This document shows positions 46,298 to 54,448 of a DNA stretch of 64,000 nucleotides, in pieces (positions within the stretch are counted from its first letter, which is position 1; each line of letters starts with the position of its first letter). Position numbers and translations under genes: made by a program. The stretch covers positions 1,240,001-1,304,000 of the forward strand of contig JAGTJL010000004.1 of the NCBI GenBank assembly GCA_020746875.1, in the 5' to 3' direction. Below the pieces are notes generated by a model that worked only from the letters and a program-made list of their open reading frames with translations, was not told where the DNA came from and made no database searches. This DNA comes from Rhexocercosporidium sp. MPI-PUGE-AT-0058. Its lineage: Eukaryota; Ascomycota; Leotiomycetes; Helotiales.

Positions 46298-47096
46298 TTT
46301 GCTTGGTTAAGGGGTAAATCAGAACCCGAGCTATGCTGTGGACCTACATATGTAGATTTTAGTGGAGCGAACTTTCAAAGTCCGTTCGCTGTATCCCGTA
46401 ATTTTACTTTTGAGTCAATCCTAAAAGGCAAGAGTAGTGACTTTGAGAATCCGGAAACGATTTCCTTGTTAGGATTGGTGGGAACATTTGAAGCTCTGAA
46501 GCTCGAGATTCATTGGTGTTTACCCTTCCGCCTTGTTGTACAGTTTTGGTTGGGCAGCTTACCGAGGCTCGTTAAGCACCGAGGGGTGCTAGCTCACTGA
46601 CCGTACTAGTACACCACTGTTATTTACAATACAAACCTTTAGGAGTACCCCTTTCACGGTCCAAGCGAAACACAAATATTTTAACAGATACGCCTTAAAG
46701 TTTGCGTATTATATTTCTTACAGTAAAGGTTCAATATTCAGGAAAATTCTCAAAACCTCAAAGGCTGTCTATTTAAGATAAAAACCCACTTTTTGGTGCG
46801 CCTCATCTTCAGGCGCATCTTTGCCAGAAGGTGGTCTGCGCCTACAAGAGCAGAAGGCTAGGGCGAGCATCACGGACAGAAGAGCAGTTTTACGTCAACC
46901 AAAGGTAAAAAAAAAGTTGAATAAAGGGAGGACTTCTCTTGTAGTTCCTGATACGGAAATGCAATTAGTGGAGTTATCACTACTGGCCGTGGCAATATCA
47001 TTAGATCCACGAATCACACCTGTTAAAAGATTTCAAACGCGGAGAAAATCTTGACTCTTTCATTTACCAAAATAAGGTAAAAATTGCTTCACAGAC
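46298..47096. other. Non-coding flank of the tRNA gene
   Basis: No gene supported; short open frames (46286-46600, 46821-47054) have no recognisable features. Confidence 0.45.
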
Positions 47097-47253
47097 GTCC
47101 GTTTGGCCGAGTGGTCTAAGGCGATGGTTTTAAGAAAAGCGCAAGCTTGAAAAACACCATTATCATTACGATGCGTGAGGTAAGATAATTATTGTACCTG
47201 AAAATGCCATGAACTTGTACTAACATTGAGAAGTTCGAACCTCACAGCGGACA
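47097..47253 (+). tRNA. tRNA-Leu(UAA) with a normal intron plus a spliceosomal-type insert
   Basis: Acceptor GTCCGTT (47097-47103) pairs with AGCGGAC (47246-47252; one G-U), followed by discriminator A 47253. The D-stem is GCC/GGC with A-box TGGCCGAGTGG. Anticodon stem ATGGT (47124-47128) pairs with ACCAT (47156-47160), and anticodon TAA is at 47131-47133. A 20-nt intron follows position 37 (47135-47154), the standard place. The variable arm (47161-47174) has ATC/GAT. The T-stem GTGAG (47175-47179) pairs perfectly with CTCAC (47241-47245), but its loop TTCGAAC (47234-47240) is separated from the 5' half of the stem by 54 nt. Without both inserts the RNA is 83 nt, normal for Leu. T runs at 47264-47267 and 47270-47273 suit Pol III termination. 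Confidence 0.88.
47180..47233 (+). other. 54-nt spliceosomal-type intron inside the tRNA gene
   Basis: It begins GTAAGA, holds a perfect TACTAAC at 47218-47224 and ends AAG at 47233, ten bases after the branch A. It interrupts the gene exactly between positions 53 and 54. Its exit leaves a perfect T-arm; no other nearby GT/AG pair does. Its last bases plus the T-loop (AGTTCGAACC) keep an approximate B-box. An earlier GAG at 47230 is an alternative but would leave three extra bases. Confidence 0.75.
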
Positions 47254-47626
47254 AAAGCTTTCATTTTGCTTTTGCTTCGCTTTATTGCCCTCTCTGCCTA
47301 AAGTGGGTGGCCGATAATCGCTGGCAAGCATCGGCTCAATCAAGTAGACAGAAATACAGCCAATCTTCGCTGCATAAAAGAGTCTCAAATCACAATTTGC
47401 TTACTATGATATTGTCTAGTGAATGAATAGACCTTTTTCTAGTCCCCCATTTGAAATTTCAAGAACGGAAGCTTTGATACACTAATATATTTGATATTAC
47501 AATGGTTATATTCTTCTCGCCTTGATTGCTCTAAAAGCAGCCAACTCTTATCAGCGAGGGGCAACACCGATAAGCATCTTCATATTTGAACCCCTCCCCT
47601 CCATTCAATCATCCTCAACATTCAAA
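47254..47626. other. Intergenic, tRNA terminator and promoter of next gene
   Basis: T runs directly after the tRNA, then no feature up to the dioxygenase start. Confidence 0.5.
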
Positions 47627-48772: not shown

Positions 48773-51700
48773 TCATCCTCTAGCATATGGGTGGAAGCCT
48801 CTGTTGCCGCCCCTACCACCGCCTCGATAGTTCGCGCCAGGCTTACCGGCATTCTTTGGACCAGTTGGCGCATTTGCTGGAGGAGCACTTTGAGGCCCGG
48901 TCTGAGGAGGAACCGAGCCCCTATTGCTTCCACCACGACTACCTTGAAATCCCCCACGAGCTCCCCCCCCACTAGGAACATTTGGTTGAGGAACATCATC
49001 ATACATTCCCTCCCATGATGTAGGTCCACCGCCCATGCCTTGACCGTATCCTCCACCCTGTCCGTATTGACCTTGCTCACGTCCACCACCTCGTCGCATT
49101 TGTTGTTGCTCATACTTCTGCTGCTCGAACATTTGCTGTTCATAGGCATTGTATCCTGGCGTGCCGATTCGTCCACCTGGGTTGCTTCCTCCACCAGTAG
49201 CATAGTTGTTCCCCATACCTGCACCACCGCCCATACCTGCTCCTCCCATGCCAGCTCCTCCACCCATCCCTGCAGCACCCATATTCTGCATTTGCATTTG
49301 TTGCATTTGCTGCATCTGTTGCATCATAGCTGGGTTCATGCCTTGCATACCAGCCATCCCAGCACTAGGACTTTGAGGGCTTTGACTACGGTTGCCTTGC
49401 TGCATTTGTTGTTGCATGGCTTGCATCTGTTGCACTTGCATCATCATGGCTGGGTTCATTCCACCCGCCATAGGCATACCTCGTCCACCTCCCATAGCCA
49501 TTTGCTGTTGCATCATAGCGAAGTATTGTTGCATGCGTTGCCAGTACTGAGCCATGACCTGAGGGGTCATACCACCTGGGGCCATTTGATTGCCACCACC
49601 TTGCTGAACTTGGTTGGAGTTTTGGTTCTCATTCTCGCCTCCTTTTCGAAATCGTCCTCCTCGACCACTGCGATCTTCTTCCTCTCTCATGTTGCCGCGG
49701 GGTTGGGCCTTCTTGACCTCGATTGGCTTGCCGAGAATCTCGAGTGGTGAGTCTAAGCAGGCTTCAACTGCGGCCTCGCTATCGAATGTGACGAATCCGA
49801 AGCCTCGTGGTCTGCCGGTGTCCTTGTCCATCATAAGGGTGGCATCAACGACTCGGCCGAACTGCATGAAGTACTCTTTGAAGTCTTGTTCGGTTGCCTC
49901 CTGGCTGACACCACCGACGAAGATCTTGCTGGTACGTTCCTGCTCGTCTCGGGGAATTGCCCTTTTTGGGTCGATCTTGCAATAGGCGCGTGAGCTTTTG
50001 TCTCTGGTAGGGGGAAGATTTTTGGAAGGGTATTGACGTAAAGAATTGGAGGGAGTTTGGAAATCGGGTCTTACGATTTTGCCATCGAGATAATGTTCCT
50101 TCACCATCACAATGTTAACAGTACGGGCATCTTTGAAGGTCAAAAAGCCGAAGCCTCTTGAACGACCTGAAGCGCCATCTCTCATCACAGTACACTCCAG
50201 AACCTCACCAAACTGAGAGAAGTACTCTTTCAGTGATTCTAAGATCTCAAGTCAGAAAACTTACAGGGGTGAGAACGCCGTGGCGGTAACTCACGATCGG
50301 TCGTCTCCCAGTTCAAACCACCAATGAACATCTTCCTGCAAAATCATGACTGGTTAGCGAATGAACTAACAACAGTAACAAGAACAATAAAATGTCTGCT
50401 ATGAAGAGAAACCCAGGGTTGGCGGAAATTGGAACGTCGTTTCGTTGTCTCGGATCCCTTGGTTTGGAACATGGGGAATGCTTCGCTTGAGGAGGTGGCT
50501 AGCCATGGGAAGAATTTCAACACTTTCAGGTCGTTTGGCTCGTAATGTGAAGGTACAAGGTCGTTGATGAATGCGCGGAATGACAGAATACGCAGGGAGA
50601 GTCGAAGAACATCCATCCGTTTTGTGGGCAGAGCTTCCGTAGCGTCTCACACACCCTGAATATCTTTGCCATCCCATGCCACTGCGAATCCGGGAGAGGT
50701 AGTCATGCAATGAAGAATGACACTGCAAGATATCCAAGAACAATCGTGTCTTTTGCTATCGTGATGCTAGGTACTGGCGTCGAACGCTATGCGCTGCCTT
50801 CTGCTCTAGCCTATCTGTGGCCTCCTCTGATGCTCTATGAAGATTATCTCGACAATAGGCTATGTAGTAGGCTTGACTATGGCCGCTGTTGATGTCGATT
50901 GCATGAGTCGATATCAGTTTCCTTGCAATCCTCTCAAGATGCCTGTGCATATCCCTCTGAAGCTGTCCAAGTCTTGATTCCATTGTCATTGTGCGGCAAC
51001 TCAGTGCTTCATGGCATCCATCCAACTACCCAGCATTTTCAACGATTGAGAGTTGTCCGACACTCCAACGACATATATCGCTCCCTCACACCTAGTCCCT
51101 CCCAGATCATCTGGTCATTCCTATGCACTGCGATAACCAAACCCCTTCCTTCTTTCATCCATCAGGACAACAGAACACATTCCAAGGTCATGCATTCAAG
51201 CCAATGTGCATCATATCCAATGATGTTGTGTCGGTAAGTGGTAGCAAATAAGTTCCGATAGCGCAGGAGGACTATCTGGAAAGAGCCACATATGTACCAA
51301 AGTCAAGCACCACGCACTTCTTCGCACGAGGTAAAAAGAAAATCGATAATATCTTACCCGTCTTCCTTAATTCCAGGTCCATGGGCTTCATGGGTGACTG
51401 GAGCATCGTAATTATTGCCATTGTTTTGGCCCAGGTTGAAGTCAATCTCATCATCCATGTCTTGATCTCCACCATTGTAAGCCTCCTCGCCACCTTGGCC
51501 GTTCTGCTCGGTAAGTTCATGCGATTCTTCGACCTTCACCTCCTCTTGTACAGGTTCGGTCTTCAATTCAACTTCTTGAGCAGCCGGCTTCGGCGCAACG
51601 ACATCATCTGCGTACCTAGAGATGGTATTAGTACATTAGTTAGGCTAAGAATGGGGAGTAGAATGTGGTTGGTAGATATGACTTGTGTGATTGATAGGAT

Positions 51701-52286: not shown

Positions 52287-54448
52287 ATGGCAGTAAGAAA
52301 CCGGTGCAGCAGGTTAGTCTAATTCCGCAAAATTTAATAGGAGACGAGGCTGATCGTACATTGAAGGAGATGGTTCAAGTTGGTCAGTTCAAATCCCCCA
52401 CCAAAGAATCCCGAAGCAAATGCATTGCGACTCTTCCCAATTATGACTCTGGACACAAGCTGACATGTCTCATATTTCATAGAAAGATCCGAGTATGTTA
52501 CGATTTCTTATTACAACTTTCCTGCCTTGAATCCACGTACGACAGCACATGGAGAGCGGGGTACATGGTGGGCTAAATGGAAACTGTTCGCTGACTTGGA
52601 ATGCTAGATCCTCCTCCCCATTCTGGCGGACTCGGACTGCAGAAGGACGACGCGATCCATCTCCTAAGAAGCAATCTGCGCGGGAGCCAGGTCTGGTTGT
52701 TGGTGCCTCATACTCGCATGCGGACATGATGAGATTCGACAACCTGTAAGGGTTTCAAACATCTGTTGGGAAAACAGCTATTCACATTGGCCACAGATCT
52801 CTATCCGCAAATTCGACGCGCCCACGGACACCCCCATCTTCTTCGTCACATAAGTCCCGGAGCGATACCCCTCCCCTTCATCGTGGATCATCTGGTCTAA
52901 CGTCCCCGCCACCAAGAAGAAACTATACAGACTTCTTGTCAAACACGAACAACGATTGGAACGCAGACGAAGAAGCGGATGAATATGACGACTATGGGTA
53001 CGACAATGATGACGGGGACGACTTTGGACTACCCAGTATATCTAGTATGAAGCGGAAGACCAAGAAGGGCCCAGAACAGACTAGCTCTGACAATGGAGGG
53101 AATCTATCGCAATTTGGCCACGGCCTGCAGGGAGGCTTTGGTGGATTTGGGACCAGAAGGCTTTCGAACAGTGCCGATATTGCCATTGAGCGCCCAACAC
53201 CAAGCTATCCAGTTGCAAAGAAGACCGAGGGAAAGATCCTACGACCACAGTACAAGGAAATCCTTAGAGACCCTGCCAACTCTCTGCATCTTATCAACCA
53301 TCCACCTGTACCAACGAATGCAACGCCAAAGGAAGTAGATGTGCATTCGGCCCGTATAACGAGGATCAACAAGTTCAAAAAGATCCTTCAAGCAACTTCA
53401 ATTAATTTGACGGAACTCAGAGCTGCAGCTTGGTCTGGTGTTCCCGAAGAAGTGCGGGCAATGACATGGCAGCTGTTACTCGGCTATCTCCCGACCAGCA
53501 GCGAACGTCGCGTAGGAACACTGGAGCGCAAGAGGAAAGAATACCTAGACGGCGTGAGGCAGGCATTTGAGAGAGGCGGAAATAGTTCTGGGCAGTCGGG
53601 CAAAATAAGGGGTCTAGACGAAGCAATCTGGCATCAGATTAGCATTGACGTGCCTCGAACAAACCCTCACTTGGAGCTTTACAGTTACGAAGCGACCCAG
53701 CGATCCTTGGAGAGAATCCTGTATGTTTGGGCAGTGCGACATCCAGCAAGCGGCTACGTCCAAGGCATCAATGATCTTGTCACACCTTTCTGGCAGGTCT
53801 TCCTCGCAAGTTACATTACGGATTCAGATGTTGAAAGCGGAATGGACCCAGGACAACTTCCAAAGACCGTACTAGATGCCGTAGAGGCAGACACGTTTTG
53901 GTGTATTACCAAGCTCTTGGATGGCATCCAGGATAACTACATTTTTGCGCAGCCTGGCATTCAACGACAAGTTGCGGCACTCCATGACTTGACGGCTAGG
54001 ATAGATGAGCCTCTAGCGAAACATTTGGAGCAAGAGAGCGTTGAATTCATTCAGTTTAGTTTCAGGTGGATGAACTGCCTCCTCATGAGAGAGATTAGCG
54101 TTAGAAACACCATCAGGATGTGGGACACGTACATGGTATGTTTACTTCGTCCCTGTTGCATGGTACAGAAACTAATAAGTAGGGAAGGCTGAAGAGCAAG
54201 GGTTCTCCGAATTTCATCTCTACGTGTGCGTGGCATTTCTGGTCAAATGGTCAGATAAACTGAGAAAGATGGACTTCCAAGAAGTTATGATGTTTCTCCA
54301 AGCGCTGCCGACTAGAGACTGGACCGAGAAGGATATTGAACTTCTCCTGAGCGAAGCGTTCATCTGGCAGTCACTGTTCAAGGGCTCGACTTCTCATCTG
54401 AAAGGCGGCTCAAGCACAACGCCGTCAAATGCCGCTCCTCGAGGGTGA
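52287..54448 (+). CDS. GYP1: TBC-domain RabGAP, Gyp1-like
   Basis: Exons 52287-52312, 52608-52745, 52797-54135 and 54188-54448 give 587 residues. The TBC domain (about residues 235-540) shows WSGVPEEVRAMTWQLLLGYLP, the arginine-finger motif as IDVPRTNPHL, and the glutamine finger YVQGINDLVTPF, then WCITKLLDGIQDNYIF and RWMNCLLMREI. These fit Gyp1, the GAP for Ypt1 at the Golgi. The N-terminus is disordered and Ser/Pro-rich. The start is uncertain: the ATG at 52271 gives an attractive MFSSSNGSKKPVQQ but is out of frame with exon 2 unless other splicing is used, while the ATG at 52287 fits exactly. Either 52271 is an upstream ORF or an indel has occurred. Confidence 0.85.

Follow-up and report, generated by a model that had tools for sequence, protein, structure and literature searches.

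Spliceosomal-type introns in the tRNA-Leu(UAA) gene and further tRNA genes of Rhexocercosporidium sp. MPI-PUGE-AT-0058

Introduction

In the textbook view, nuclear tRNA introns are processed by an endonuclease and a ligase dedicated to them, and spliceosomal introns are regarded as a feature of Pol II genes, with rare exceptions such as U6 and the rRNA of lichen fungi. In Rhexocercosporidium sp. MPI-PUGE-AT-0058, a tRNA-Leu(UAA) gene lying in the 64,000-nt stretch of DNA analysed here (the window) carries a usual anticodon-loop intron and also a 54-nt insert in the T-arm that looks like an mRNA intron. The question raised by this locus is whether the spliceosome processes the tRNA or whether an intron-like element has silenced the copy. 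The analysis described below led us to conclude, with high confidence, that the insert represents a spliceosomal intron of the U2 (GT-AG) type and that it interrupts a functional Pol III gene, one of at least 17 tRNA genes with such introns. GT-AG introns would be taken out of these genes by the spliceosome, and anticodon-loop introns by TSEN. Spliceosomal-type introns in tRNA genes form a real class, unreported as far as was found: no report of them came up in searches of an open-access library, a body that leaves most subscription papers and all preprints outside.

Structure of the tRNA-Leu(UAA) gene

The gene occupies positions 47097-47253, and like all its parts described here it lies on the forward strand. 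Direct reading, recomputation and ARAGORN bore out the preliminary description of this locus as a tRNA-Leu(UAA) gene with inserts of 20 and 54 nt. Exon 1 (47097-47134) covers tRNA positions 1-37 with the anticodon TAA and contains the internal A box TGGCCGAGTGG (47104-47114), located by sequence and pattern. It is followed by a canonical 20-nt intron 3' of position 37 (47135-47154), placed by ARAGORN in a register ambiguous by 1 nt. Exon 2 (47155-47179, positions 38-53) holds the long variable arm and the 5' half of the T stem, and exon 3 (47234-47253) corresponds to positions 54-73. Between them, at 53|54, lies the 54-nt spliceosomal-type intron (47180-47233), which reads GTAAGA...TACTAAC...AAG and has no TTTT run. 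These three motifs had been described correctly, and only their spacing needs to be amended: the branch-site heptamer TACTAAC (47218-47224) ends 9 nt before the intron end, and it is the putative branch A (47223) that lies 10 nt from it. The internal B box AGTTCGAACCT (47232-47242), identified in the box test, is unbroken in the DNA because the final AG of the 54-nt intron replaces the AG of the exon.

Upstream, an AATAAG element (47071-47076) was found 26 nt 5' of the tRNA start through the RATAAS counts given below. Downstream, two TTTT runs (47264-47267 and 47270-47273) are the first and second candidate Pol III terminators, and the first downstream T run is a T4 in several other tRNA genes too. 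A TTTT also occurs in the anticodon region of the gene (GGTTTTAAG); its length equals that of the terminator, which counts against the preferred reading.

Excision of both introns gave an 83-nt tRNA-Leu(UAA), and recomputation found its acceptor, anticodon and T stems full, confirming what had been claimed for the latter two. ARAGORN reported 0 tRNA genes on the full gene. Excision of the 54 nt made it call Leu(taa) with a 20-nt intron, and after excision of both introns the call was again Leu(taa). Rfam gave nothing at this gene, either at the gathering score or when E values up to 1 were allowed. The insertion point of the 54-nt intron is ambiguous among three registers, only one of which has GT-AG ends. 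The chance of GTAAG, TACTAAC and AG arising in any of the three registers at a fixed insertion point was calculated analytically as about 2.5e-7; the recurrence of such inserts in 16 other tRNA genes is a stronger check than this figure.

Interrupted tRNA genes in the genome

At least 19 GT-AG introns outside the canonical site, in at least 17 tRNA genes, were counted in the 62.7-Mb genome from a biased and incomplete sample of 76 tRNA-like genes (47 + window + 25 + 3). The 47 came from an Rfam tRNA search of the genome, in which 63 of 2658 candidates were scored and at least 47 tRNAs obtained; all 47 were read by eye and three also by deletion scan. Three of them were interrupted outside the anticodon loop. 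Locus L045, an Arg(UCG) gene, has a 59-nt insert in the variable loop (GTAAGT...TTCTAAT...TAG) and was misnamed Ser(CGA) by ARAGORN until this insert was excised. The other two, the Ile(AAU) genes L033 and L043, have acceptor-stem introns at 5|6 and 6|7, respectively.

Patterns combining a B box with a terminator gave 80, 152 and 67 matches, the set of 152 being covered only among the matches listed. From these, 39 stretches were picked by eye, and 25 were counted as tRNA genes and 14 were not. Among the matches listed, 11 of the 25 had an insert outside the anticodon loop, a number that includes L106, which was left out of the count of interrupted genes. Introns were found in the D-loop of Leu(UAG) L100, Leu(CAG) L108 and Glu(CUC) L122, at 9|10 in Leu(CAA) L107 and Ala(CGC) L120, at 10|11 in Gln(UUG) L111, and at 6|7 in Ile(AAU) L133. 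The two Glu(UUC) genes are interrupted at 6|7 (L102) and 52|53 (L105), and Ser(GCU) L132 has two introns, at 7|8 and about 28|29. The tRNA positions given for the introns, and for L108, L120 and L132 the isotypes as well, were determined in part or entirely by eye.

A genome-wide pattern for introns near a B box (GTAHG..CTAAY..GTTCGANNC) showed no enrichment, with 36 matches against 38 for the backward control; the window gene and L045 were among the loci recovered. Of nine stretches chosen by eye from this pattern, three are tRNA genes. Two of these encode Asn(GUU) (L141 and L146) and are interrupted at 53|54, exactly where the window gene is; the third, Ser(GCU) L139, has one intron at 7|8 and another at about 43|44. 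The other six gave no tRNA from any GT-AG deletion. Altogether the intron positions range from the acceptor stem to the T-arm, and a gene may hold up to two mRNA-type introns, often beside a canonical TSEN-type intron.

Some tRNA-like loci were set apart from this count. The Gln(CUG)-like locus L106 (G000:C6:975218-975663) has a D-arm insert that starts with GTAAGT and includes CTAAC, with a TTTT inside and a mismatch in the T stem. The insert has no AG at its structural end and was excluded from the 19; the locus is perhaps a decayed copy. L037, L114 and L131 are tRNA-like with inserts of about 70 nt at or near the anticodon loop, lack clear GT-AG features and were likewise uncounted. L099 and L110 are truncated tRNA-Gly-like copies with a common upstream stretch, one of them AT-shifted, and perhaps represent a tRNA-derived repeat.

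Products of intron excision

The alternative that survives best holds that intron-like insertions have silenced the interrupted genes and made them pseudogenes, while intact copies elsewhere supply the tRNAs. We consider this improbable. Ile-AAU, Glu-CUC and Gln do have copies without GT-AG introns, L106 looks decayed, and the genome contains a U6 fragment (L053, described below), all of which would fit silencing. However, the comparison of spliced genes with intronless paralogues speaks against it. Glu(CUC) L122 after splicing is identical to the intronless L121, L123 and L125 (72/72), and Ile L043 is identical to L003 (75/75). Ile L033 and L133 match L003 in 74 of 75 columns; the remaining column is a terminal base that the call did not include. 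Gln L111 matches L116 and L030 at 69/72, and Leu(CAA) L107 is only 78% alike to L046. The two Asn genes, L141 and L146, share 79 of 80 exon and canonical-intron letters when the outermost bases of the acceptor are disregarded, but identity between their 53|54 introns is 57%, not above the pairwise mean of 56.8%. Therefore the tRNA has been conserved and the intron has not. The GT-AG ends, kept in all 19 introns, also argue against decay.

The exactness of excision was further examined by a deletion scan of 43 loci, in which all 40-80-nt deletions were made, giving about 5000 products per locus. The GT-AG excision was the top product in L033, L043, L102, L107, L111 and L133; L033 was called a tRNA even unspliced, with a score (110.3) below that of its spliced form. 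Other deletions outscored it in L045, L100, L105, L120 and L122, there was a tie in L108, and L132 needs two deletions. For the window gene, one deletion altering the anticodon scored slightly higher (107.7) than the GT-AG excision (107.0). Eleven of the 14 uncounted B-box stretches gave no tRNA under any deletion and L110, L113 and L115 gave some, L113 even by a GT-AG deletion (100.7), though it was not counted as a gene. After excision, ARAGORN named the expected isotype in 15 of the 17 interrupted genes, calling L108 SeC and L132 Ala.

Copy number of tRNA-Leu(UAA) and other essential tRNAs

Silencing would also require intact genes elsewhere, and in the searches made neither Leu(UAA) nor Glu(UUC) turned up as an intact gene. 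BLAST of the genome with the window gene and with its mature form returned this locus alone and no other Leu(UAA). The same search returned none of the other Leu tRNAs of the genome either and is therefore not very sensitive. A variable-arm pattern matched only the window locus over the genome. A pattern of A box and anticodon, TGGCCGAGN{8,36}TTTAAG, gave 15 matches (backward control 11), of which only the window gene had a tRNA form by eye.

One locus leaves a different reading. For L046 (G000:C12:1399197-1399716), ARAGORN named Leu(taa) when the intron position was free in the loop, and Leu(caa) with the same score of 110.3 when the intron was placed at 37/38. The intron is 26-28 nt long and the isotype hangs on its placement, being UAA if the intron precedes the anticodon, in which case L046 would be an intact second copy and a point for the pseudogene explanation. 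The anticodon context of L046 matches that of Leu(CAA) L107, and the locus is read here as Leu(CAA). The window gene may be the sole copy of tRNA-Leu(UAA), subject to this alternative reading and to the limited sensitivity of the searches.

UUA can be decoded only by a UAA anticodon, and TTA codons are used: 26 of 4266 codons in eight window ORFs, which are partly cut by introns. GAA codons require tRNA Glu(UUC). A Glu(UUC) pattern, of a form that would miss a gene interrupted between D-arm and anticodon, found two genes, both of them interrupted (backward control 1 match). In the Asn(GUU) family, both genes seen (L141, L146) are interrupted at 53|54, and no intact Asn gene occurred among the tRNA genes examined, a set obtained without an Asn-specific pattern. 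Genes with mRNA-type introns are probably the only source of the essential tRNAs Leu(UAA) and Glu(UUC), and perhaps of Asn(GUU) too, in which case a second, spliceosome-dependent tRNA splicing pathway would operate genome-wide and tRNA supply, and through it the decoding of UUA and GAA, would depend directly on the spliceosome. Between the two options first offered for this locus, processing by the spliceosome is now much favoured over a silenced copy, given that no other Leu(UAA) surfaced in the searches made, that UUA is used, and that 16 further tRNA genes bear GT-AG introns and turn into ordinary tRNAs once these are excised.

Promoter elements of the interrupted genes

The motif RATAAS was present within 65 nt upstream of 13 of the 17 interrupted and 31 of the 44 uninterrupted tRNA genes, as compared with 4.3% of random 65-mers from the window; for three genes the count covers only 41-44 nt of upstream sequence. 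Its retention by the interrupted genes is a further point against silencing. In L108 the element lies at -31. Six genes (L033, L043, L102, L132, L133 and L139) have exons of 5-7 nt, and the upstream element kept 5' of exon 1 supports such short first exons as real.

The A box had lost at most one consensus letter in all 17 interrupted genes. The B box was unchanged in 15 and had one letter less in both Asn genes. This state is what would be expected of live Pol III genes, though random insertion mostly passes too: it would spare the boxes with a probability of about 0.90 per intron, for a product of 0.20, so that sparing of the boxes was not significant as a signal of selection.

Intron signals and the splicing machinery

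Another alternative treats the inserts as non-canonical tRNA introns that the tRNA splicing endonuclease removes, in the style of archaea, nucleomorphs or Cyanidioschyzon, and their GT-AG ends as incidental. This was judged highly improbable. All 19 introns begin with GT and end with AG, and these boundaries agree with RNA structure or with paralogues. A branch-site-like motif (YTRAY, 22 to 7 nt before the intron end) is present in 18, the exception being L105 with TACTAAG; neither feature is needed by TSEN. Fifteen start with GTAAG, and 18 end with YAG. In contrast, of 50 canonical 37/38 introns placed by ARAGORN in the same genome, none had exact GT...AG ends; GT and AG lay no more than 4 nt from the ends in three, and YTRAY was present in six.

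The standard bulge-helix-bulge register has a 4-bp central helix between two 3-nt bulges. In this register the helix was complete in none of the 19 introns, and the window gene has two of the four pairs; a 4-bp helix was obtained in 3 of the 19 when the register was allowed to shift by one, which favours the endonuclease to that extent. The window insert lies at 53|54 and not at the canonical 37/38, a site already filled by the 20-nt intron. Its identity as a TSEN-type, bulge-helix-bulge intron was rejected on both position and central helix, even though 53/54 is among the non-canonical sites of archaea and T-arm introns occur in nucleomorphs (PMC4090602).

Two mRNA introns in the window share the signals of the inserts. 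A Gyp1-like TBC protein gene has a 52-nt intron (54136-54187, forward strand; GTATGT...ACTAAT...AAG) whose excision restores the TBC domain, with one stretch aligning across the junction with TBC1D22B (6d0s). An RRM-protein gene has a 99-nt intron (49976-50074, reverse strand; GTAAGA...AAG), placed by protein continuity only, with the same end letters as the window tRNA intron. We take this gene to be Hrp1-like, and genes that are presumably Gyp1-, Hrp1- and Dpb2-like fit a fungal source. The tRNA introns are 50-66 nt long, against 52 and 99 nt in these two protein genes, the only two compared. The 3' site of the window tRNA intron, AAG, with a GAG ending 3 nt earlier, is weaker than the YAG of the other 18. 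Both protein-gene introns end in AAG, and such a 3' end is therefore probably used in mRNAs here. By their GT-AG ends, a 5' site near GTAAGT, a branch site and their length, the inserts look like U2-type spliceosomal introns.

TTTT is present in none of the 19 introns. Two sets of statistics were left unused as evidence. A shuffling test of TTTT avoidance on 15 introns gave P = 0.054, and in the window enrichment was weak for CTAAC with GTANGW (16 against 6.3 expected) and for TACTAAC (2 against 1.0). Two other identities were rejected. An introner-like mobile family does not agree with a mean pairwise identity of 56.8% and a maximum of 67.2% among 20 introns (two from U6), nor with the single BLAST match of the window gene in the genome. 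Group I and II introns are at least about 200 nt long; the insert has 54 nt, and no self-splicing intron was matched by Rfam in the window at the gathering score.

It is barely credible that the introns are spliceosomal but that Pol II makes the spliced RNA, or that this RNA has some other role, with Leu(UAA) coming from an undetected gene. The incomplete tRNA census would allow this; against it, both internal boxes, the upstream element and the T-run terminators resemble those of other tRNA genes, and the searches made gave no other Leu(UAA).

Proposed processing pathway and its significance

As read from the sequence, the anatomy of these genes strongly implies that their GT-AG introns are removed by the spliceosome. 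For the window gene, Pol III would start upstream of exon 1, directed by the AATAAG element, and would use the A and B boxes, which are left essentially unbroken. The resulting pre-tRNA would carry two kinds of intron. The spliceosome would excise the GT-AG intron, joining position 53 to 54 so that the T-arm can form, and TSEN and tRNA ligase would afterwards take out the 20-nt anticodon-loop intron. TSEN reads the mature tRNA body.

If this is true, the spliceosome should be able to process short, highly structured and uncapped Pol III transcripts and to use exons as short as 5-7 nt, and translation capacity would be tied to spliceosome activity. Intron gain would also be documented naturally within this one genome, since near-identical paralogues differ in having a site occupied or empty, such as Glu-CUC L122 against L121 and L123-L125, or Ile L033, L043 and L133 against L003. 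Standard tRNA finders miss or misname such genes, so similar cases may hide in other genomes; in tRNAscan-SE 2.0, non-canonical introns are handled in the archaeal mode (PMC8450103).

Known systems and U6-like genes

The canonical TSEN intron is represented in the window gene itself, 20 nt long and 3' of position 37, and the inserts described here differ from it in position, length and ends. Like the inserts, certain tRNA introns in archaea, nucleomorphs and C. merolae are non-canonical and lie outside 37/38; the sites include 53/54 in archaea and, for nucleomorphs, the T-arm (PMC4090602). Those of archaea and C. merolae differ from the inserts in having bulge-helix-bulge motifs and being cut by the splicing endonuclease, and those of the Guillardia nucleomorph are 3-24 nt long with an unknown mode of splicing (PMC4090602). 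The string "spliceosom" does not occur in the main text of that paper.

Short spliceosomal introns have been reported in the rDNA of lichen fungi, where they are removed by the host, and also in yeast (PMC8527467); the word tRNA is absent from the main text of that paper. They share with the inserts their small size, their spliceosomal nature and their location in a non-coding, non-Pol II gene, and differ in interrupting Pol I rRNA rather than tRNA. A further close system is U6, in which a spliceosomal GT-AG intron likewise interrupts a Pol III gene. Such mRNA-type introns occur in U6 of fungi other than fission yeast too. That of fission yeast (S. pombe) is mentioned in PMC10484740. The difference is that a tRNA is interrupted here, not a spliceosomal RNA near the catalytic centre; moreover, the tRNA introns occur in many genes and positions and coexist with a canonical intron in one gene.

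The genome also contains a U6-like locus, L052 (G000:C1:767328-767482), with two spliceosomal-type introns. The first (GTAAGT...TACTAAC...CCAG) was read as 50 nt long, between exons TTTGGT|CAATTTG, and the second has GTAAGT...GCTAAC...CACAG; this reading follows an assumed U6 consensus. L052 scored 39.8 bits in Rfam, under the U6 cut-off of 44. With two such introns in this locus, the splicing of Pol III transcripts appears likely in this fungus apart from the tRNAs. RNase P RNA was found at one locus, in which no GT-AG intron was obvious by eye. A divergent, intronless U6-like locus, L051 (G000:C12:3467522-3467630), keeps ACAGAGA and scored 66.1 bits, more than L052. A third locus, L053 (G000:C1:868279-868333), is a U6 3' fragment corresponding to the part downstream of the second intron site, and its 5' part is apparently absent.
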